37,599 nt of DNA from an uncultured SAR86 cluster bacterium (GTDB lineage: Bacteria; Pseudomonadota; Gammaproteobacteria; Magnimaribacterales; D2472), in the NCBI GenBank assembly GCA_902541365.1, contig CACBQK010000001.1:1-37599 (forward strand), given 5' to 3'. Shown piece after piece: positions 1 to 37,279 of this stretch. The notes below the pieces were generated by a model. That model made no database searches, was not told the DNA's origin, and saw nothing but the letters and a program-made list of their open reading frames with translations. How positions within the stretch are numbered: the stretch's first letter is position 1; every line of letters starts with the position of its first letter. The position numbers and the translations under genes were made by a program.

Positions 1-213
1 CAAGCAGTTGCATCTGGAGGTACTTCAATTGGATTGAAAGGTGCAAAACTAGCAGCAAAAGTTCTCACGAATTCTGCAAAAGACATCTTTTTAGATCCAA
101 AAATTATAGAAGACTCGAAAAAAGAGTTAATAGTCAAGCGAGGTAAAGATTTTTCTTATTATCCTCTGCTTGGTGACAGAAGTCCTCCTTTGGAATATCG
201 ATTAAATAAGTAG
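1..213 (+). CDS. AbgB-like p-aminobenzoyl-glutamate hydrolase, C-terminal end (partial)
   Basis: The open frame enters from the left edge of the window and ends at TAG 211-213, leaving 70 residues. The piece TSIGLKGAKLAAKV, followed by a stretch ending in SPPLEYRLNK, resembles the C-terminus of M20-family amidohydrolases of the AbgB type (p-aminobenzoyl-glutamate hydrolase subunit B), in which TSIGHKG-like and P-P-L motifs close the protein. The family cleaves p-aminobenzoyl-glutamate, a folate breakdown product, to p-aminobenzoate and glutamate. The metal-binding catalytic core lies outside the window, so neither activity nor exact subfamily can be checked. It is followed after 95 bases by a TonB-dependent receptor that has its own promoter, and further on by gamma-glutamyltranspeptidase, another glutamate-releasing enzyme. 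Confidence 0.7.
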   Translation, partial: QAVASGGTSIGLKGAKLAAKVLTNSAKDIFLDPKIIEDSKKELIVKRGKDFSYYPLLGDRSPPLEYRLNK

Positions 214-244
214 TTCAAGAGACACTTTAATAGATACATCTTAT

Positions 245-273
245 TTGATTTAAGTCCAGTTTTAAGTTATAAA
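245..273 (+). promoter_or_regulatory. sigma70-type promoter for the TonB-dependent receptor
   Basis: TTGATT (245-250) and TATAAA (268-273) are separated by exactly 17 bases. This puts the transcription start near 280 and gives a leader of about 29 bases ending in the GGGGGA ribosome-binding site of the receptor gene. The same -35 hexamer with the same 17-base spacer occurs before tRNA-Pro on the other strand. This is a visual match only. Confidence 0.55.
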
Positions 274-308
274 TTAGTAGATTTTCAAATAAATTAATGG
301 GGGAAAAT

Positions 309-3300
309 ATGAAGTTACTTAAACTTTTTTCAATTTTATTATTATTACCTATTACACTTCTTTTTGCTCAAGAGGAATCTGATGTAGAAGAGGTTGTAGT
401 AGTTGGGTCACAAATTAAAGGTGCAAAAATAACTGGAGCTTTGCCAGTAACTGTTATAACCGCAGAGGATATTGAAAGTTTAGCAGTTGAATCTGGTGAA
501 GAACTTTTTGCAGATCTAGCTGAAAATGGAAGTAATAACTTTAACCAAACAGACTTTAGTGGAGGATACAATGCCTCTAGAGGTGATGTTGGATCGTTAG
601 ATTTAAGAAATATTGGAACAGGTAATACTGTTACTCTTCTTAATGGAAGAAGATTAGTGCAATCACCTGGATATGCAACAGAGTGGGTTGGTGGAAGTTT
701 TGTACCTGTTTCTAGCGTTAACTCAAATACAATACCGGTTTATGGGGCAGAAAGAGTTGAGATCCTTCGTGATGGAGCTTCTGCAATCTATGGAGCTGAT
801 GCTGTTGCCGGGGTTATAAACACTGTTCTCAAGGATGACTTTGACGGTCTCACAATGAGAGTGAGACAAAATTGGTATGACAGCTTTGATGCAAAAGACA
901 ACAAAGTTAGTATTCAATGGGGTAGAACTATGGCTGACGGTTCAAATCTATCAATTTATTTCGACAGATACGATAGAGAGAGAATTAGAGGTATTGAGGA
1001 CCCAAAATGGTCTGATGGAGATCTAAGAAGATTATTGCCTAGTCCTGATGAAGGTGGACTTGGAGCTTTTAATGATACTACTTGGAGAAATGCTAGTGCT
1101 AGTTCAGTCTGGGCTCAATTCTATGAAGGAAGTAATATTTTTACAATTTACAGACCGGATGATTCCAATTGTTTAAGTAACTCATCAAGTAATCTTTATA
1201 ATATTCCTGGCTTAGATCATATGTGTTTATATGACTCCAGTTCTATAAGGGCAGCAAGTAGAGCAAGTTATGGTCAAACATATGATAAGAGAGGCCCATT
1301 GTTGAGAAATAATTTAGTAATGTTTTATAACACTACTCTCGATAGCGGCATAGAGGCATACAGTGAGGTAAGTTATTATAAATCAACTGCTAACAAGCAA
1401 CTTTATGGAGGTGCGCCTCTTGGAATGGGGTCTTCCTCAAAAAATGGTGGAAACACTCAACCGATTCTTGTTCCATCAACTAACTATTGGCTCAATCAAC
1501 TCCAAAGACCCAATGGGGACCTTTTTGTAGACAAGGAAGGAGACCACCTTTGGTTTAGGTATTTCAGATTTAATACTCCAAGAAGTTGGGACTCAACTAG
1601 AGAAACTTGGAGAATAGTTCAAGGTTTCAGAGGAACTTATGGTGATTGGGATTGGGATGCTGGTCTGGTTGCGTCAGAAGCAAGTTCTGAGATGGATAAC
1701 CATGGAAGACAAAGTATGACATTGCTTAATGCGGCTTTAGCAGATTCAACACCTAATGCCTACAATCCATTCAATGCTGGTCTTAACAGCAATGAGGAGC
1801 CATTTACAATAAGTATATTTAGGAATAATAATACTGACCTTTATATGGCTGACTTTAAAATGTCTAATCCATCTCTCTATTCAATGCCTGCTGGTGATTT
1901 AGCTGTATTGGTTGGAGCAGAGGTTAGAGCAGAATCTATGGAAGATTTAAGAGATCCTAGAATCAATGGAACAATTGCTTATTCTACTCCTCCAGAGGCA
2001 GCTAATCAGTCAACCTTCCCATATATTTCTGATGTTGTGAATAGTAGTCCATCTCCGAATACAACCGGAGACAGAGTGGTGGCTTCTCTGTTTGCAGAGG
2101 CACAAGTTCCTCTTCTGGAAAGCCTAGATGCTCAAATCGCTGTAAGGGTTGAAAATGCAGATGACTATGGAACGAATACTGTTGGAAAAGTTGCTCTTGG
2201 TTATGCGCCTACAAGTTGGTTCAAACTTAGAACATCAAATTCAACATCGTTTAGAGCGCCAAACTTGATTACAGTTAACGAGGGTTTAGTTGTTAGAAAC
2301 AACTCCCAAGAGGATCCTTTATATACCAAAGCAATTGGTGAGAATTATGAAAACTACTCTATTCAGAGAGTTGCAAAAGGTAACGATGCTTTAGAAGGTG
2401 AGGAGTCTACAAATGCCTCCATTGGCTTGGTTCTTACACCTGGAGATAACTGGATTATTACAATTGATAAATGGCAGATCGAACAGGAAAGTGTTGTAGG
2501 ATTGTTTGGTGAAAGAAATCACATGCTTTTAGATACTCTGATTAGAGTTAATGGAGGACCAAACGAATGTGTCGGTAATCCATTTGTTATAAGAAGTGAT
2601 TTTATACCTGACAGTGATCCAGAATCACCAACATATAACGCAACTTGGGATCCAAATCTTTGTTTAGCTGGAACTGTTCAAAGAGTTGAAGATGTTTATG
2701 TTAATTTAGACGATAGAACTCTTGAAGGAACTGACTATGCCATAGAATATTCTATGGATACAGATTATGGATCTTTTTCTGCAAAGTTCATGAGTGTTCA
2801 ATTTGATTCTTTTGAACAAGATGCTGGAGCGCTAACACAGCAGTTATTTGATGCTGCTGGTGCTGGAGGAGCTCTTGAGGGCCTCATTTCTCCATCCGGC
2901 TTTGGTGATCTTCTTGGAACTTATGACAGAAGAGCATACCCAGAGTATAAAGATTCTATGAGAATTTCTTGGAATCACAATGGTTGGAGTGCATTTCTTT
3001 CAGGAACTGAAATAGCTAGCTTCAGAGAAATTGCTGTTACTAATAATGCAAAAGACTCATCAGGTAACTATGTATGCTCTGGTACAACATCATATTCTGG
3101 TGGAAACTGTGGAGAAAATTGGTTAGTTGAATCAATGATGACTCTTAATTTTACTCTTGGATATAAATTCAAGAATGGTCTAAGAGTTAGAGGTCAAATC
3201 AGAAACCTAGAAGATACTCGAGCACCTTTAGCTGATGAGTATACATGGGGTTTCGTTGGAGACGTTCATAGTGACTACGGAAGAAGTTATGCTATAGAGT

Positions 3301-3317
3301 TTTATCAAAAATTCTAA
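309..3317 (+). CDS. TonB-dependent outer-membrane receptor
   Basis: This is a 1002-residue outer-membrane receptor that would import a substrate using energy from TonB/ExbBD. I chose ATG 309 over ATG 297 because GGGGGA (299-304) sits just ahead of 309 as a ribosome-binding site, and because the protein then starts with a clean signal peptide (MKLLKLFSILLLLPITLLFA). The mature protein opens with the EEVVVVGSQI segment typical of this family, followed by a plug domain (roughly residues 40-170, with LNGRRL and VERVEILRDGASAIYGADAVAGVIN-type signatures) and a long beta-barrel ending in phenylalanine (FYQKF). Six cysteines fall in three close pairs in the barrel region (about 287/306, 754/785, 922/934), suggesting disulphides in outer loops. 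The substrate cannot be read from sequence. The nearby AbgB-like hydrolase, DASS symporter and gamma-glutamyltranspeptidase hint at peptide- or glutamyl-type compounds, which is inference. Confidence 0.93.
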   Translation: MKLLKLFSILLLLPITLLFAQEESDVEEVVVVGSQIKGAKITGALPVTVITAEDIESLAVESGEELFADLAENGSNNFNQTDFSGGYNASRGDVGSLDLRNIGTGNTVTLLNGRRLVQSPGYATEWVGGSFVPVSSVNSNTIPVYGAERVEILRDGASAIYGADAVAGVINTVLKDDFDGLTMRVRQNWYDSFDAKDNKVSIQWGRTMADGSNLSIYFDRYDRERIRGIEDPKWSDGDLRRLLPSPDEGGLGAFNDTTWRNASASSVWAQFYEGSNIFTIYRPDDSNCLSNSSSNLYNIPGLDHMCLYDSSSIRAASRASYGQTYDKRGPLLRNNLVMFYNTTLDSGIEAYSEVSYYKSTANKQLYGGAPLGMGSSSKNGGNTQPILVPSTNYWLNQLQRPNGDLFVDKEGDHLWFRYFRFNTPRSWDSTRETWRIVQGFRGTYGDWDWDAGLVASEASSEMDNHGRQSMTLLNAALADSTPNAYNPFNAGLNSNEEPFTISIFRNNNTDLYMADFKMSNPSLYSMPAGDLAVLVGAEVRAESMEDLRDPRINGTIAYSTPPEAANQSTFPYISDVVNSSPSPNTTGDRVVASLFAEAQVPLLESLDAQIAVRVENADDYGTNTVGKVALGYAPTSWFKLRTSNSTSFRAPNLITVNEGLVVRNNSQEDPLYTKAIGENYENYSIQRVAKGNDALEGEESTNASIGLVLTPGDNWIITIDKWQIEQESVVGLFGERNHMLLDTLIRVNGGPNECVGNPFVIRSDFIPDSDPESPTYNATWDPNLCLAGTVQRVEDVYVNLDDRTLEGTDYAIEYSMDTDYGSFSAKFMSVQFDSFEQDAGALTQQLFDAAGAGGALEGLISPSGFGDLLGTYDRRAYPEYKDSMRISWNHNGWSAFLSGTEIASFREIAVTNNAKDSSGNYVCSGTTSYSGGNCGENWLVESMMTLNFTLGYKFKNGLRVRGQIRNLEDTRAPLADEYTWGFVGDVHSDYGRSYAIEFYQKF

Positions 3318-3333
3318 AAACTCATTAATTATT

Positions 3334-3361
3334 AAAAGGGAGCTTTATGCTCCCTTTTTTT
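3334..3361 (+). terminator. rho-independent terminator after the TonB-dependent receptor
   Basis: GGGAGC (3338-3343), loop TTTAT, then GCTCCC (3349-3354), followed by seven T (3355-3361). The preceding AAAA can pair with the first Ts. It ends only 16 bases before the next start codon, so the next gene needs its own promoter inside or just after this hairpin. Confidence 0.9.
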
Positions 3362-3365
3362 ATCC

Positions 3366-3371
3366 TATAAT
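3366..3371 (+). promoter_or_regulatory. -10 box of a probably leaderless promoter for the DASS symporter
   Basis: A perfect TATAAT ends six bases before ATG 3378, so a start seven bases after the box falls on the A of the start codon. No ribosome-binding site fits in the gap. The -35 region (CTTTAT at 3343-3348) is poor and lies inside the upstream terminator hairpin. Confidence 0.5.
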
Positions 3372-3377
3372 TAATTT

Positions 3378-4808
3378 ATGGCTTTAAGAAAAAGAGGGTT
3401 TTGGATAGGAGTATTTCTTTTTACTGCGATAATCATATTGCCCTCACCTTCAGGTTTAACTGAAAGTGCTTGGTTAGTTGCTGCTGTTGCAGTTTTAATG
3501 GTTACTTGGTGGGCAACAGAAGCCATACCAATACCTGTAACTTCATTATTGCCTTTAGCGCTGTTTCCGATTCTTGGTATTACCTCAATAGAAACAGCTG
3601 CACTACCATATGCCAATAAAAATATTTATCTCTTTTTGGGTGGTTTCCTAATTGCACTAGCAATTGAAAGATCTGGTCTCCACAAGCGCCTTGCATTAAT
3701 TATGATTAAAAGACTTGGGTCAGATGGACCTAAACTTATTGGTGGCTTCATGCTTGTTTCAGCTTTAATTAGCATGTGGGTGATGAATACATCAACCACA
3801 CTGATGTTATTACCAATTGGTCTAGCAATATGTTCGGTTGTAGCAAAAACTGTTCCAAATATGTCTGAAAAAGATAGAGGTAATTTTGATAAAGCTCTTT
3901 TGTTATCTATTGCATATGCTGCAACCATTGGAGGAATGTCTACACTTGTAGGTACTGCTCCAAATATTGTTTTTAGCTCTTTTATGCAAGAAGTTTATGG
4001 TTTGGAGATTTCTATGTTTGATTGGATGAAGTTAGGCGTTCCAGTTTCAATTTGCATGCTTACATTAGCATGGTTAATTCTTACAAAAGTCGTATATCCC
4101 GTAAATTTTGCTTCATCGGATGAAACAAAGAACACTCTTTCAAAAATGTTGACAGATATGGGTCCCATGTCTAAGGACGAATTTAGAGTTGGGATTGTCT
4201 TCTTCATCGCAGCAGGTTTGTGGATGTTTAGAAGTCTTATTGATAACTACGTAATCGGGCTTACAGATGCCGGTATTGCAATTCTCGTAGCAATTGCATT
4301 ATTCATAATTCCTTCTAGTGGAAGGAATGGAGAATTACTCTCATGGGAACAATCAAGTAAACTTCCATGGGGATTATTACTCCTCTTTGGTGGAGGTTTA
4401 TCGCTTGGTGTTCAGATTAATGATACTGGTCTTGGTTTGTGGATTGGTCAAAGCCTTGTTAGTCTTAAAACAGTTCCGTTAATAATTCTCGTTATGGCTG
4501 TAGCTGCACTAATAATATTTTTAACAGAAGTTACAAGTAATGTTGCAACAACCTCAACTTTCTTACCAGTTTTTGGAGCAGTCGCAGTTGCTGTTGGTGT
4601 TGCACCTGAAGTCTTAACTGTTCCTGTTGTACTTGCAGCAAGCTGTGCGTTCATGTTGCCAGTAGCAACACCTCCAAATGCAATTGTATATGGGGCTAAT
4701 AAATTTAAGATCATTGATATGATGCGTGCCGGATTTTTAATTAACATAGCCGGTATTTTTGTAGTGACAGTTTTTGCATATTACTTTGCGAAAGTTATTT
4801 TCGGATGA
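3378..4808 (+). CDS. DASS (SLC13) family sodium/anion symporter
   Basis: This 476-residue inner-membrane protein has about a dozen hydrophobic segments and belongs to the divalent anion:Na+ symporter (DASS/SLC13) family, which takes up C4-dicarboxylates, citrate or sulfate with sodium. Family signatures are present in order: TEAIPIPVTSLLPLALFP, the first substrate/sodium motif NTSTTLMLLPIG, the helix-break motif TLVGTAPN, and the pseudo-symmetric second half with TEVTSNVATTSTFLPV and PVATPPNAIVYG. Both S/T-N-T-type clamp motifs are intact, so it should be functional. The exact substrate cannot be assigned; a dicarboxylate such as succinate, aspartate or glutamate is plausible. Its stop overlaps the start of gamma-glutamyltranspeptidase (ATGA at 4805-4808), so the two are probably translated together. 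Confidence 0.92.
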   Translation: MALRKRGFWIGVFLFTAIIILPSPSGLTESAWLVAAVAVLMVTWWATEAIPIPVTSLLPLALFPILGITSIETAALPYANKNIYLFLGGFLIALAIERSGLHKRLALIMIKRLGSDGPKLIGGFMLVSALISMWVMNTSTTLMLLPIGLAICSVVAKTVPNMSEKDRGNFDKALLLSIAYAATIGGMSTLVGTAPNIVFSSFMQEVYGLEISMFDWMKLGVPVSICMLTLAWLILTKVVYPVNFASSDETKNTLSKMLTDMGPMSKDEFRVGIVFFIAAGLWMFRSLIDNYVIGLTDAGIAILVAIALFIIPSSGRNGELLSWEQSSKLPWGLLLLFGGGLSLGVQINDTGLGLWIGQSLVSLKTVPLIILVMAVAALIIFLTEVTSNVATTSTFLPVFGAVAVAVGVAPEVLTVPVVLAASCAFMLPVATPPNAIVYGANKFKIIDMMRAGFLINIAGIFVVTVFAYYFAKVIFG

Positions 4809-6532
4809 GATTTTTAAAAATAGCTTTTTTTCTTTTTCTTTTTCAGGCACACGATGCTCAGCTTGATGCATATCTAGACTATAAATCACCCTTCCATCCG
4901 ACAATTTCTGAAAATGGGATGGTGGTCTCTCAAAATCTTGAATCTTCAGAAATTGGAACTATGATATTGGAATCAGGAGGTAATGCAGTAGATGCTGCAG
5001 TAGCTGTTGGATTCTCATTAACCACAACTCTTCCAAGAGCAGGAAATATTGGTGGTGGCGGTTTTATGTTAGTTTACATAAAAGAAACTCAAGAGTTGTT
5101 TTCAATTGACTATAGAAGTAGATCTTCTTTAAATTCAAATTTAAAAGATTTATTCGGCTCTAAATCACCAGCACAAATTCAAGATGATGACTATGATCTA
5201 ACTAAATATGATTACAAAGCATCAGCAGTTCCTGGAACCGTATATGGTCTCTTAGAAGCTCATGAAAGATTTGGAGATTTGCCTCTTGAAAAAGTTTTGC
5301 AGCCGGTTATCGATCAAGCAAGAAATGGAATTATTGTTTCCTATGACTTACATAATGCAATTGATAGCTCCTATCAGCTAAAGAAAGACACTGAATCACG
5401 AAAGATTTATTTTCAAAACAATAAACCAGTAGCTATTGGCTCATTAATGAAAAGACCTGATTTAGCTAAAACTTTTGAAGCAATATCCAAAGATGGTAAA
5501 GATGGATTTTATGATGGGTGGGTCGCTGAAAAAATTCAATCCTCTATGAAGGATAATGGCGGTTTTATAGATAGCAATGATCTAAAGCAATATAGCTCAA
5601 AGTTTAGAGATCCAATTGGAGTGAATTACCGTGGATATAGTGTATATACTCAAGGGCCTCCATCAGGAGGAGGAATAACATTTCTAACTGCTTTAAATGT
5701 ACTCAGCTATTATAATCTTGGTAAATATAGAAAAGATTCATCTCTAACCTATCACCTTCTGGCTGAGGCATTAAGAAGAGGACATAATAATAGATCTCAT
5801 CATGTGGGAGATCCAGACTATTATGATGTGCCTACTGAAGGGCTTATATCACAAGGCAGAGCTAAATTATTAGCTAAGAATATTAGTTTTGATAAAGCAT
5901 CAAAGGCATCTTCAATCCAAAAATATAATCACATAGAGGAAAGTAAAGATACCACTCACTATTCTGTTATAGATCGAAATGGAAATGCTGTTTCAAATAC
6001 ATATACATTAGGATATTCATTTGGTTCAGGAGTTACTATTCCAGGAACAGGAATCTTGATGAATAATCAAATGAGAAATTTTGCATATAAGTATGGTGAT
6101 AAAACATCTACAAGCAGAGCTTCAAGCCCAGGAAATAGGTTTGAACCAGGTAAAAGACCAATGAGTACAATGCATCCTATTATGGTATTTAATAAAAAAG
6201 GTGAGTTGTCTTTGATTACTGGATCACCCGGAGGATCTCAAATACCTGCTGCGAATCTAAGAGTGGTAACGGGAGTAATAGATTTTGATTTGCATATAGG
6301 TGATGCAACGATGCTCCCTAGAATACATAAAGATTGGCCTTATGCTGACCTTGATTATGAATCGACAGTTAGTCAGGATAACTTAAATCTTTTAGACAGA
6401 ATTGGTCATCAACTAGAGTTATCAGATACTATCGGCAGCACACAATCAATTCAGATCATTGATGGAATCAATTATGGTTTTGCTGATCTAAGAAGACCTA
6501 ATGCTGGAGTTTCAATAGAAAAGTCTAACTAA
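4805..6532 (+). CDS. ggt: gamma-glutamyltranspeptidase precursor
   Basis: This 575-residue N-terminal-nucleophile hydrolase removes or transfers the gamma-glutamyl group of glutathione and similar compounds in the periplasm. An N-terminal hydrophobic signal segment (residues 1-19) fits export. Family marks are AVDAAVAVGFSLTTT with the GGGGF loop (about 60-87), Arg104 as likely gamma-glutamyl carboxylate ligand, and KDTTHYSVID, in which Thr383 is the expected self-cleavage site and nucleophile of the small subunit. NTYTLGYSFGSG and GSPGG (oxyanion region) follow. Length matches the E. coli enzyme (580). It begins inside the stop of the DASS symporter gene, so released glutamate or its products may be taken up by that symporter (inference). 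The stop codon overlaps the convergent gltX gene by 8 bases with no terminator visible. Confidence 0.95.
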   Translation: MRFLKIAFFLFLFQAHDAQLDAYLDYKSPFHPTISENGMVVSQNLESSEIGTMILESGGNAVDAAVAVGFSLTTTLPRAGNIGGGGFMLVYIKETQELFSIDYRSRSSLNSNLKDLFGSKSPAQIQDDDYDLTKYDYKASAVPGTVYGLLEAHERFGDLPLEKVLQPVIDQARNGIIVSYDLHNAIDSSYQLKKDTESRKIYFQNNKPVAIGSLMKRPDLAKTFEAISKDGKDGFYDGWVAEKIQSSMKDNGGFIDSNDLKQYSSKFRDPIGVNYRGYSVYTQGPPSGGGITFLTALNVLSYYNLGKYRKDSSLTYHLLAEALRRGHNNRSHHVGDPDYYDVPTEGLISQGRAKLLAKNISFDKASKASSIQKYNHIEESKDTTHYSVIDRNGNAVSNTYTLGYSFGSGVTIPGTGILMNNQMRNFAYKYGDKTSTSRASSPGNRFEPGKRPMSTMHPIMVFNKKGELSLITGSPGGSQIPAANLRVVTGVIDFDLHIGDATMLPRIHKDWPYADLDYESTVSQDNLNLLDRIGHQLELSDTIGSTQSIQIIDGINYGFADLRRPNAGVSIEKSN

Positions 6533-34305: not shown

Positions 34306-34638
34306 ATGTTAAGCTTTTTTCAATACCCTTCTTCTAGCTTATTAATAATTTCTCTCTTAATTATTAACAAGCTGGTAATCTTAATCCTATATAAGCTGCC
34401 TTTATTAATATTTAGTTTTTGGGCAATTCCTCTTTTGTGTTTTTCTTTTTTTCTCCACAAAAAGTCAATTAGAAGCTATCAATCCTATGCATTTATACTC
34501 TTGCTTTATTTCATGTTTTCAAGCTTACGAGTTTTTGGTGTTCCAAATCCATTACCTTTTGATATTACTGAACTTGTTTTAGTTGTTTTAGCTTTTATTA
34601 ATGCTTTATATGGACCAAAAAATATAAATAGCAATTGA
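34306..34638 (+). CDS. DUF2069-like small membrane protein
   Basis: This 110-residue protein has about four hydrophobic segments. The arrangement, with a short basic loop (HKKSIRSYQSY) before a YFMFSSLRVFG segment and a final ELVLVVLAFINALYG helix, resembles DUF2069, a family of predicted proteobacterial inner-membrane proteins of unknown role. A TATTTT hexamer lies 5 bases before the ATG and no ribosome-binding site is seen. Its TGA stop overlaps the TTGACA half-site (34635-34640) that begins the regulatory region of the following genes. Confidence 0.65.
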   Translation: MLSFFQYPSSSLLIISLLIINKLVILILYKLPLLIFSFWAIPLLCFSFFLHKKSIRSYQSYAFILLLYFMFSSLRVFGVPNPLPFDITELVLVVLAFINALYGPKNINSN

Positions 34639-34658
34639 CATGTCAAGCATACTTGACA
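34635..34658. repeat. triple TTGACA half-site array, probable operator
   Basis: TTGACA (34635-34640) is followed directly by its inverse TGTCAA (34641-34646), forming a perfect 12-base palindrome. After GCATAC a third copy, TTGACA (34653-34658), follows. The second and third copies also make a second inverted pair, TGTCAAG-CATA-CTTGACA. Such spaced inverted half-sites are typical of dimeric HTH regulators, and a small XRE regulator is encoded 565 bases downstream. Confidence 0.65.
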
Positions 34659-34664
34659 TAACAT
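34635..34664 (+). promoter_or_regulatory. promoter inside the TTGACA array
   Basis: Consensus TTGACA (34635-34640), an 18-base spacer and TAACAT (34659-34664) form a fair sigma70-type promoter. The predicted start is 34671, which is the A of an ATG. The other two half-sites fill the spacer, so a bound regulator would block polymerase. Confidence 0.5.
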
Positions 34665-34670
34665 AGCTAC

Positions 34671-34754
34671 ATGATTTTTTTAATAACCCTGACAATATGG
34701 TGCTTCTCTGCACTTGCATTGAAGTTTTTACCGCTTTTAATTAGCTTAATTTAA
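34671..34754 (+). CDS. putative 27-residue single-helix membrane peptide
   Basis: This short open frame starts with ATG at 34671 and stops with TAA at 34752-34754. The peptide begins MIFLITLTIWCFSALALK and ends with a second hydrophobic stretch around a proline. It is hydrophobic almost throughout with one lysine at position 18, as expected for a small single-pass membrane protein. The ATG lies exactly at the predicted transcription start, so the mRNA would be leaderless; no ribosome-binding site is possible. It precedes a four-helix membrane protein gene by 16 bases. AT-rich DNA often encodes hydrophobic short frames by chance, so this could be only an untranslated leader. Confidence 0.35.
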   Translation: MIFLITLTIWCFSALALKFLPLLISLI

Positions 34755-34770
34755 TATTTAATTCTTTCAT

Positions 34771-35226
34771 ATGGCCAAGATTACTTATAAAGGAATGTGG
34801 ATAGAGCTTAAATCTTTAGATAAAGATGCAAAAAGCAAATACATACTATGCCATGTCTTTCTCTTTGCAGGAGGTCTTTTTTTTGGCGTTCATCTGGCTG
34901 CAGTAGGTGGACTTGGTATTGAAGTAAGTGAAGAAGTTTCACCATCTCCAGTTTTAGTTATCGTCAGAGTCTTATCACTAACCTTTATGCTGATAGCTGC
35001 ATGGTTATATAAAGAATTTTTTGCAACACAAGATGAATTTCTAAACAGATATAATGAATTTGTACTTAGCAATGGAGCTATCGGCTTTCTTTTTGTTGGT
35101 TTTCTTATTTCTATCCTGTCTCCATATATTGATTATCAAGTAACTTTTTACGAATACTTTCTTGGCTTTGCCCTTGGGACAATTATTGGTGGATATAGAT
35201 TCCATAATAAATTTATTGGTCAATGA
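34771..35226 (+). CDS. four-helix membrane protein paired with an XRE regulator
   Basis: I do not recognise the family. The 151-residue protein has a short charged N-terminus (MAKITYKGMWIELKSLDKDAK) and four predicted membrane helices at about 24-48, 58-82, 98-121 and 124-146. It has one cytoplasmic-looking loop with YKEFFATQDEFLNRYNEF between helices 2 and 3. The ATG has no clear ribosome-binding site; TTTAAT (34757-34762) just upstream could be a -10 box giving a 2-base leader. Its stop overlaps the start of the small XRE regulator (ATGA, 35223-35226), so the two products are made together. Small XRE regulators next to short multi-helix membrane proteins are a recurring bacterial arrangement, mostly without known function. 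Confidence 0.8.
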   Translation: MAKITYKGMWIELKSLDKDAKSKYILCHVFLFAGGLFFGVHLAAVGGLGIEVSEEVSPSPVLVIVRVLSLTFMLIAAWLYKEFFATQDEFLNRYNEFVLSNGAIGFLFVGFLISILSPYIDYQVTFYEYFLGFALGTIIGGYRFHNKFIGQ

Positions 35227-35426
35227 ATAATTCAATCAAGCAGTTAAGAGAGCAAATGGGTTTAAGTCAGGCAGATTTAGGCAGTTCTGTAGACGTTAGT
35301 AGACAAACAATTAATTCAATTGAAAATGGTAAATTTGACCCGAGTTTGCCATTGGCACTTAAACTGGGTCAATTTTTTAACACTCCTGTTGAACAAATTT
35401 TTTCAACAAATAACTTTAATAAATAG
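35223..35426 (+). CDS. small XRE-family (HTH_3) transcriptional regulator
   Basis: This 67-residue protein is almost entirely one helix-turn-helix domain: LREQMGLSQADLG, then VSRQTINSIENGKFDPSLPL as recognition and following helices, ending with ALKLGQFFNTPVEQIF. It matches the short YozG-like/COG1476 type with the SRQTINSIENGK signature. Its start overlaps the stop of the four-helix membrane protein. The likely target is the TTGACA half-site array at 34635-34658 upstream of that gene, giving an autoregulated unit (inference). sppA follows 8 bases downstream with its own ribosome-binding site. Confidence 0.92.
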   Translation: MNNSIKQLREQMGLSQADLGSSVDVSRQTINSIENGKFDPSLPLALKLGQFFNTPVEQIFSTNNFNK

Positions 35427-35434
35427 GATAAATT

Positions 35435-37279
35435 ATGGAAAAAGCTAAAAGCATAATCACATTTGTAGATAATCTTCTTGGAAAATTTAGAAGAGTGTTT
35501 CTAAATATTTTTACAGTTCTTCTTTTAATGCTCATCACTTTGGGTATTTTTGGCAGTTTAGATTCTCTGTTTCAATCTGATGAAATAGAAACAGAAGATC
35601 AAATCCTCTATTTAGAGCCTAATGGAGTAATTGTAGATAAGGCAATAAATAGAAATGATCCATTTGAAGAATTCGAAATTTTTGGAAGCTCTACAAACCA
35701 AATTGAGTTAGAAAATATCTTGAAAGTTATCAATAATGCTGGAACTGATGATGATCTTAAAGCTATTTATCTTGATGTTGATGGCATTAGAGCTTATTAC
35801 ACTTCTGCATTAAAAATTGCAGATGCATTGTATAAAGCTAGAGAGAATGGAAAAGAAATAATTGCTTACACCAGTGGGTTGGGAACAACTAACTATCTTA
35901 TGGCCTCTCAAGCTAATGAAGTAATTCTTGAAAAAGATGCATACGGATCTGTTTTGCCTTTTGGTTTTAGCAGAGTAAGGCAATATCAAAAAGATTTTTT
36001 TGAAAATATTAAAGTTGATATGAATGTTTATGCTGCTGGTGATTTTAAGTCTGGCCCTGAGGGCTTTACCAGAAATGATATGTCTGAAACAGATAGGCTA
36101 GCGTGGGTAGAGTTTGTTACTCCAGTTTGGGAAAAGTATAAAGCTATGATGGAAACAGGCAGAGGTTTTGACTCAGGAACTATTCAATACATTGGAGATA
36201 ATTATCACTTATTAGCAACTGAGAATGGTGGCGATGACAATGAAACTGCTCTGGCAATTGGCTTAGTTGATAAGCTAATGACAAAACAAGAAATTAGAAA
36301 CTATATGATTGAAAAGTTTGGCAGTGAGGATGACTATGAGTGGCCTGAGGGAATAACTGGTAGAGAGTATCTTTCAACTCTGAAAGATGAAGAAATTAGT
36401 AGAAAACAACAAAGAGCTCAGGATAAAAATAAGATTGCTGTTATCCATGTTGAGGGAGCAATTGTCACAGGTGGCATAGACTTTAATACCGCTGGTTCTG
36501 GAGGTATCGTTAAAAATATTAATAAAGCCAGAGATGATAAAAATGTTAAAGGAATTATTTTAAGAGTAAATAGCCCTGGTGGAGATGTTTACGCTTCATC
36601 AATGATTACGAATGCTTTAGAAGAATTTCAATCTACTGGAAGACCTGTATATACATCTATGGGTGATATTGCAGCATCAGGCGGTGTTTGGGTTACAACA
36701 ACTTCTGAAGAAATATGGGCTGAAGATACAACGCTTACTGGCTCAATTGGAGTATACAGTATTGTTCCTGATGTCAGTCCCCTTGAGAATTGGGCTGGTA
36801 TCAACTATGACGGCGTTAGCATGACAAAAGCAGGTGATATTTATGATTTAAGTAGAGGAATGAATGAAGAGCTTAATAAGCAATTCAGAGAAAATACTGA
36901 GAACTTCTATAAAGAGTTTGTTACCAAGGTAGCTGAAAATAGAAAGATGGAATTCTCAGAAGTCCTCAAATTTGCTGGTGGAAGAATATGGCGAGGCAAT
37001 ACAGCTCTTGAACTAGGTTTAGTCGATAAATTGGGCTCACTTGATGATGCTATTGACTCTATGGTGACAAAACTTGGACTAGAGGACTATAAAGTCTTTT
37101 CGTACAACACTGAAGTTGAGTTTGAGTTCGATTTGAATTTACTGATTCAAAATAAACTCCCCTCTCAGATTCAGGACTTGTTGAATGAAATTAGTGGTCT
37201 TAATAGGATGCTTTTATCTGGTGAAGACAGATATGTAGTGGCCTATTGTTTTGATTGTGGCTTTAAGAACTTCGAATAA
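35435..37279 (+). CDS. sppA: signal peptide peptidase SppA (67K type)
   Basis: This 614-residue inner-membrane serine protease cuts signal peptides and other hydrophobic fragments in the membrane. One N-terminal helix (about 21-43) anchors two ClpP-like S49 halves. The dyad is Lys205 in AGDFKSGPEGF (first half) and Ser415 in DIAASGGVW (second half), matching E. coli Lys209/Ser409. LRVNSPGGD near 376-384 is a further conserved motif. The ribosome-binding site AGGA (35425-35428) overlaps the xre stop codon, so it is probably in the same transcript as the XRE module. Its stop overlaps the convergent hda gene by 17 bases. Confidence 0.95.
   Translation: MEKAKSIITFVDNLLGKFRRVFLNIFTVLLLMLITLGIFGSLDSLFQSDEIETEDQILYLEPNGVIVDKAINRNDPFEEFEIFGSSTNQIELENILKVINNAGTDDDLKAIYLDVDGIRAYYTSALKIADALYKARENGKEIIAYTSGLGTTNYLMASQANEVILEKDAYGSVLPFGFSRVRQYQKDFFENIKVDMNVYAAGDFKSGPEGFTRNDMSETDRLAWVEFVTPVWEKYKAMMETGRGFDSGTIQYIGDNYHLLATENGGDDNETALAIGLVDKLMTKQEIRNYMIEKFGSEDDYEWPEGITGREYLSTLKDEEISRKQQRAQDKNKIAVIHVEGAIVTGGIDFNTAGSGGIVKNINKARDDKNVKGIILRVNSPGGDVYASSMITNALEEFQSTGRPVYTSMGDIAASGGVWVTTTSEEIWAEDTTLTGSIGVYSIVPDVSPLENWAGINYDGVSMTKAGDIYDLSRGMNEELNKQFRENTENFYKEFVTKVAENRKMEFSEVLKFAGGRIWRGNTALELGLVDKLGSLDDAIDSMVTKLGLEDYKVFSYNTEVEFEFDLNLLIQNKLPSQIQDLLNEISGLNRMLLSGEDRYVVAYCFDCGFKNFE

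Follow-up and report, generated by a model that had tools for sequence, protein, structure and literature searches.

SAR86 bacteria are abundant in the surface ocean and largely uncultured. In the SAR86 contig CACBQK010000001.1, whose 37,599 nt form the stretch analysed here (henceforth the window; source genome 1.02 Mb in 34 contigs), the gene of a small XRE regulator lies between those of a four-helix membrane protein and of the membrane protease SppA, raising the question of what this regulator controls and how far its control extends. An initial annotation of this DNA had proposed a local module, in which a three-part array of half-sites, a 27-residue hydrophobic peptide, the membrane protein, the regulator and SppA together serve as a membrane-stress sensor. 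Comparison of sequences from related genomes supports an 18-bp operator (TGTMAAG-N4-CTTKACA), its pairing with the XRE gene and a regulon. The module is not a local unit, given that this predicted regulon of efflux pumps and peptidases reaches beyond the locus.

An operator linked to a gene pair

A profile of the membrane protein matched 53 of the 107 SAR86-family genomes in our sample (E <= 0.001), among them eight of the ten in the window genus (g1). At all 53 loci the XRE gene was found just 3' of the membrane gene on the same strand, and we refer to these two genes as the pair. In a sample of 369 genomes from the class, the window's own matched the membrane-protein profile at E <= 1e-5 and the 368 others did not. 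Up to 260 nt 5' of the membrane gene were inspected at each pair locus, 50 of which were readable (L041, L044 and L045 are cut by contig ends). The operator was perfect at 48 of these 50 promoters and matched 13 of 14 positions in the other two (L015 and L050). When the upstream stretches were dinucleotide-shuffled, no more than 1 in 100 shuffles per locus attained the observed score. Although the loci were picked by protein, the pattern's letters came from inspecting these same loci by eye, which makes the genome-wide counts the more independent evidence. The counterexample named in the initial annotation, a membrane/XRE pair devoid of the operator, did not appear at any readable locus, and its suggestion that the regulator controls its own membrane partner is very probably right.

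Genome-wide, the 107 genomes contained 177 perfect sites, compared with a single one for the control, the same pattern read backwards; 66 genomes had at least one. Sites were present in 52 of the 53 genomes with the pair and in 14 of the 54 without it (Fisher p = 3e-16, uncorrected for relatedness). The sole pair genome lacking a perfect site is G089, where a contig end interrupts the pair; in 51 of the 53, at least one site lies elsewhere than at the pair's own promoter. In genus g8, 33 of 34 genomes carry neither pair nor site; G084, the only g8 genome with the pair, carries a site at the S9/TonB promoter. The dedicated XRE protein (E < 1e-30) was itself detected in 54 genomes, namely the 53 with the pair and also G046, whose copy starts at base 59 of a contig. 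Judging from this co-occurrence and from the pair promoters, the XRE protein in all probability binds the operator.

The layout of the window locus is given below. The coordinates first assigned to the promoter, frames, XRE gene and sppA were correct on recheck, as were the overlap of the XRE start with the membrane-gene stop (ATGA) and the 8 nt between the XRE stop and sppA. The half-site array is more aptly taken as a -35 box plus one intact operator, with half-sites TGTCAAG and CTTGACA around CATA (TGTCAAGCATACTTGACA). We read the 18-mer upstream of it as a decayed second copy. In other genera such a copy is intact or nearly so: second copies occur in many loci, either contiguous with the first (g5, g6) or overlapping it by one base (g4), and are perfect in L052-L054 and at 12-13 of 14 positions in g4 and g6 loci, while in the window genus the copy has 11 of 14 and lends its TTGACA to the -35 box. 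The -10 letters are TAACAT in seven of the eight loci of this genus and TAATAT in L006. Transcription is predicted, from the -10 spacing only, to start at 34671, and the TGA stop of the upstream DUF2069 gene falls within the -35 box. In a promoter scan the operator-bearing site had the joint best score (10/12), but promoter-like sites were no more frequent in the region than in shuffles (8 against an expected 10.0). Consensus matching by itself therefore proves nothing, and we rejected the scan as evidence.

Features of the SAR86 pair locus in the window (positions in CACBQK010000001.1)
Feature	Position	Strand	Remarks
-35 box TTGACA	34635-34640	+	Also right half of the putative decayed second operator copy (34623-34640, 11/14 matches)
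18-bp operator	34641-34658	.	Fills the promoter spacer exactly
-10 box TAACAT	34659-34664	+	18-bp spacer; putative function
27-codon frame, hydrophobic microprotein	34671-34754	+	ATG 12 nt past the operator; predicted leaderless
151-aa four-helix membrane protein	34771-35226	+	Predicted partner/sensor of the XRE protein
67-aa XRE (Cro/CI-type) regulator	35223-35426	+	CylR2 homologue; predicted operator-binding repressor
sppA, 67K-type membrane serine protease	35435-37279	+	Predicted co-transcribed target

A feature of another kind was seen in part of g4 (L015, L018, L019, L020, L021, L022, L027, L029 and L030), where a conserved leader of about 140 nt separates the operator from the membrane gene. 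In its predicted fold a conserved inner part and a T-rich tail accompany a long outer stem (AACGTTTGCAT...ATGCAAACGTT), and 4 of 29 predicted pairs carry two-sided changes. A scan of five loci, leaders included (L021 and L029 among them), gave no Rfam match at the gathering threshold. The leader is possibly an RNA regulator or attenuator of the pair.

The predicted regulon and its targets

Pair promoters accounted for 51 of the 177 sites (48 loci, three with two perfect copies), leaving 126 elsewhere, all of which were mapped, as were 20 of the pair sites for a second time (146 in all). Of the non-pair sites, 123 lay no more than about 330 nt from the start of genes in recurrent classes, each found in one to six genera; these classes were defined post hoc from the genes beside the sites, which tells against using the fraction, and it is recurrence across genera that constitutes the evidence. 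The most frequent class was an S9 peptidase and/or TonB receptor (31 genomes, six genera). Next came a MacB-type ABC-MFP-FtsX exporter (28 genomes, four genera), in 12 cases with a F420H2-quinone-reductase-like gene first; in the two loci of this kind that were read (L280, L281) the exporter genes followed it. TolC followed (24 genomes, four genera; divergent from parE in 23), then an RND adaptor (17 genomes, all g4 but for one g1 genome), with the pump behind it in both loci read (L276, L277), and SppA directly (17 genomes; g2, g3 and g9). SPFH proteins (three genomes; g5 and g9) and M16 peptidases (two genomes; g6) were rarer. Three sites fell outside the recurrent set, one at a contig end and two, in g5 and g7, by a shared uncharacterised family; the proteins of this family beside the sites in L183 and L120 are about 206 aa long. 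The window genome itself has only two perfect sites, at the pair promoter and upstream of tolC. By its target content, this looks like an envelope or membrane-stress system, as the initial annotation had suggested.

Several further observations weigh against such a regulon under the pair. Genus g8 carries most of the contrast in co-occurrence; when g8 and g10 are left aside, sites are found in 51 of 52 genomes with the pair and 14 of 19 without (p = 0.004, again uncorrected for relatedness). Fourteen genomes that lack the membrane gene keep sites: in G046 an XRE gene sits close to the edge of a contig, and the remaining 13, all drafts that are 70-90% complete, come from genera with pair-bearing members, with missing contigs as a likely explanation. 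G011 (90% complete) and G012 have the operator before sppA with no dedicated regulator found, and only one of the three genomes of their genus, g3, has the pair. Sites within one genus are largely inherited together, so that related genomes inflate the counts. In the window genome the pattern with up to two mismatches showed no excess, with 16 occurrences to the control's 18, which led us to reject imperfect sites there as candidates; neither the exporter promoter nor the TonB promoter was located in it. The TonB receptor/S9 peptidase class, lastly, fits nutrient uptake equally well.

This last point makes peptide scavenging the main rival explanation. The pair would sense usable oligopeptides, and derepression would raise the TonB receptor and the S9 peptidase so that these are taken up and digested, with SppA and M16 acting as further peptidases. 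The S9/TonB class is the most frequent and M16 recurs in two genomes. In addition, the S9 peptidase of L282 resembles Dpp5 and lasso-peptide isopeptidase models weakly, far below their cut-offs. (In L282 the peptidase, at 3267-5345, is divergent from a TonB receptor at 21-3071, with the operator between them.) The exporter, TolC and RND pump, with their 28, 24 and 17 genomes, nevertheless export and do not fit uptake, and we consider scavenging unlikely.

Regulator, membrane partner and the role of SppA

The XRE protein matches HTH_3 (1.7e-15) and is homologous to CylR2 (1utx; E 1.3e-15, over residues 3-61 of 67). The closest solved XRE by sequence is 9k3w (2e-17), a PbsX-family structure going by its molecule name. 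An alignment of 30 of the 53 sequences shows VSRQT-NSIE--KFDPSL to be invariant. A second, more distant family of small XRE proteins (E ~1e-15 to 1e-18) occurs in many genomes of the family, some without the pair (e.g. G097:C1:190189, G071:C1:37207 and G040:C1:23629).

The operator occupies different positions on the predicted promoters examined by eye: the -35/-10 spacer at the pair, over the -35 box at sppA (L259) and tolC (L056), and abutting the start codon at the exporter (L077). Such scatter fits steric repression better than activation. If the XRE protein instead activated the regulon, its approach to the -35 box from upstream at sppA and tolC would be natural, being a place used by some activators, but at the pair and the exporter it sits where it would be expected to block polymerase, and its relative CylR2 represses, according to PMC3709268. 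We take repression to be probable, and activation quite improbable.

The 151-aa membrane protein matched no Pfam or NCBIfam family, the toxin families of those libraries included. DUF2157 gave weak matches in 20 of 41 homologues (best 4.2e-5) and was not adopted as a family name, since hydrophobic profiles match membrane proteins loosely. The four helices first proposed are supported by an AlphaFold2 model (pLDDT 89.1), which shows a hairpin at the N-terminus and helices spanning 18-45, 60-85, 89-120 and 126-149. Within a hand-picked alignment of 41 of the 53 sequences, 11 residues are invariant, including M1, A2, G8, S15, L16, Q87 and D88; the distribution of positive charges suggests that both termini and the Q87-D88 turn are cytoplasmic. 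PDB chains searched by profile held no match for this protein, a Foldseek search with its model found none at E <= 0.001, and the best VIA-align hit (Z 8.1, rmsd 3.7, 100 residues) is in the range of common helical matches.

A self-contained toxin-antitoxin-type pair, in which the XRE protein is an antitoxin that regulates its own genes and the membrane protein is the toxin, would account for the overlapping, apparently autoregulated genes and for the resemblance of the small XRE protein to antitoxin models. The best of these, the Y4mF family, scored 44.4 bits against a cut-off of 71.65, however, and the protein reached the cut-off of none of the 20 NCBIfam models listed. With a partner that matches no Pfam or NCBIfam toxin family and a many-locus regulon that is atypical for such pairs, we give this explanation very little credence.

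The scheme that we favour, which as a whole seems to us somewhat probable, is an XRE repressor with a membrane sensor running an envelope/peptide-stress regulon. The repressor would bind TGTMAAG-N4-CTTKACA and close its own promoter by occupying the -35/-10 spacer, and the same operator, on or beside the predicted core promoters, would place TolC, the MacB-type exporter, the RND pump, SppA, the S9 peptidase with the TonB receptor, and occasionally SPFH or M16, under its control. The four-helix protein, encoded in the same operon and predicted to reside in the inner membrane, would sense a membrane-active compound or its damage and capture or release the repressor via conserved cytoplasmic faces. 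Removal of the peptide or amphiphile by the pumps and SppA would then reset the system. Repression rather than activation, signalling through the membrane protein and the stimulus are steps that we infer. That the membrane protein modulates the repressor is reasonably likely; the stimulus is the least certain step, and its assignment to the class of membrane-active peptides or amphiphiles is tentative, with a chance slightly short of even.

The place of SppA in this system, as first annotated, is supported. The window sppA passes TIGR00705 (SppA_67K) with 340.9 bits (cut-off 311.45). In 33 of the 53 loci (g1, g4, g5 and g6) the pair is followed downstream by an sppA gene on its strand, and in 17 other genomes (g2, g3 and g9) sppA has its own operator; the pair was undetected in three of these 17, G011, G012 and G102. 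The sppA promoters of G006, G053 and G048, which have no pair, showed no perfect operator. That the same control is reached by two routes, operon or own operator, is the strongest argument for SppA as a core target. The RDD domain is defining for SppI/YteJ, SppI being a member of the RDD family; no RDD match was found in the window membrane protein (E <= 1), nor among the 25 listed of 34 families for the 41 homologues. In Bacillus, SppI is a membrane protein that inhibits SppA, as described in PMC7568657. By this precedent, and with sppA so often downstream of the pair, the membrane protein might mainly regulate SppA while the XRE protein only sets the dose. Besides the missing RDD match, the g2, g3 and g9 sppA genes with their own operator away from the pair, and the constant presence of the membrane gene beside the XRE gene (53/53), speak otherwise and make this improbable.

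The 27-codon frame at the predicted transcription start was present in all eight loci of the window genus, with the same length, the same 12-nt distance from the operator and a stop 15-16 nt before the membrane gene. The break in close relatives that would have spoken against it was seen in none of these eight loci. The last 19 residues are invariant, and the 16 distinct changes among six distinct sequences comprise 12 synonymous, 4 non-synonymous and no stops; random placement gives a mean of 5.1 synonymous changes and reached 12 in 0.025% of 20,000 trials (P = 2.5e-4). The expectation of synonymous-biased conservation was thus borne out, and these substitutions indicate that the frame is probably coding and the peptide real. 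Matches to it below E 0.1 came only from window-genus loci in a search that covered the pair loci and not whole genomes; they include duplicate loci from the same genomes as well as L208, which comes from another record. L208 (CAJWWR010000043.1) is a 96% identical locus in a bin labelled Prochlorococcus, and is probably a mis-binned SAR86 contig.

With matches from a single genus among the loci searched, the peptide is an unlikely centre for the mechanism. It may even be functionless, the frame serving as a translation-coupling leader for the membrane gene. The constant placement of its start and stop between operator and membrane gene would suit a leader, as would its restriction to one genus with so few changes, whereas the invariant residues and the synonymous bias would not, nor would the other tiny hydrophobic frames that other genera have in this operon. 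We regard a leader as a serious possibility, though with less than an even chance. Those other frames lie between the XRE gene and sppA. In g4 and g6 (22 loci) they encode 68-75 aa, of which 75-82% are A/V/I/L/M/F/W/C and 0-3 are charged, and the frame is kept between divergent genomes (e.g. L010, L021, L024 and L046). In g5 there is a 45-aa frame in two loci and an apparent 23-codon frame, by eye, in a third.

SppA had been suggested as merely disposing of the microprotein. Of 20 stretches given, sppA was not found in four, three of them from g2, g3 or g9; in the ten g2/g3/g9 stretches with sppA, the operator was near and no convincing tiny hydrophobic frame followed just 3' of the gene, which makes this restricted role unlikely. 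A bolder idea is that SAR86, with its genomes of about 1 Mb, conducts its envelope/peptide defence through a phosphorelay-free pair, a membrane sensor directly retaining or freeing a repressor of 67 residues. SppA would have built-in substrates in the tiny hydrophobic proteins of the operons linked to it (27 aa in g1, 23-45 aa in g5, 68-75 aa in g4 and g6), which would accumulate when SppA is busy with foreign peptides and so keep the sensor on. It is a speculation to which we assign a small chance; if true, the cell would read the free capacity of its own membrane protease. The locus offers a testable case for a role of very small hydrophobic proteins beside SppA.

Comparison with known systems

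CylR1/CylR2-type signalling is known mainly from one Gram-positive toxin operon, and the CylR2 site is an inverted repeat in the controlled promoter. In the cytolysin operon of Enterococcus faecalis, CylR2 acts as the repressor, and induction by a lantibiotic subunit requires CylR1, which is suspected to be a membrane protein; a phosphorelay-free signal through CylR1 has been proposed (PMC3709268, PMC5454873). The SAR86 pair resembles this system in its very small XRE protein, in the adjacent small membrane-protein gene (at every locus), in a predicted repressor at the promoter and in the inverted-repeat operator there. It differs in gene content. The neighbours of the pair in the window are DUF2069, a thioredoxin-like protein, M23 and sppA, with no divergent lantibiotic biosynthesis operon, and the predicted targets are efflux and peptidase genes across the genome. 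The SAR86 membrane protein also has four predicted helices, compared with three in CylR1 (PMC3709268). For want of a lantibiotic operon we class the XRE protein as a CylR2 homologue that would work like the pair, and not as a cytolysin regulator.

The SppA-SppI system likewise has SppA and a membrane protein in one operon, tied there to antimicrobial peptide resistance: B. subtilis SppA confers resistance to the lantibiotics nisin and subtilin and to a cationic peptide (PMC7568657). The SAR86 membrane protein, unlike SppI, has no RDD match, and its pair can be unlinked from sppA.

A third comparison concerns regulon content. YknXYZ is an MFP-ABC-FtsX exporter. The sigma-W factor of B. subtilis controls SppA, the YknWXYZ transporter and the SPFH flotillins FloA/FloT (PMC8144471), so that SppA, an exporter and SPFH are shared with the SAR86 targets. 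The likeness is one of content only, for sigma-W is an ECF sigma factor of a Gram-positive bacterium, the SAR86 regulator is an unrelated HTH_3 XRE protein, and SPFH is a target in only three SAR86 genomes. It is from the behaviour of CylR2/CylR1, the lantibiotic resistance conferred by SppA and the content of the sigma-W regulon that we infer a regulon for defence against membrane-active peptides or amphiphiles.

The titles and abstract openings of the top-ranked literature, a coverage that leaves out most subscription journals, mentioned no genome-wide envelope regulon under a CylR2-type pair. The parts of the system are of known kinds. SAR86 gains, from sequence alone, a predicted transcription factor, its operator and a target list, and CylR1/CylR2-type signalling may also govern a genome-wide envelope regulon in a Gram-negative group, with a content that overlaps that of sigma-W.

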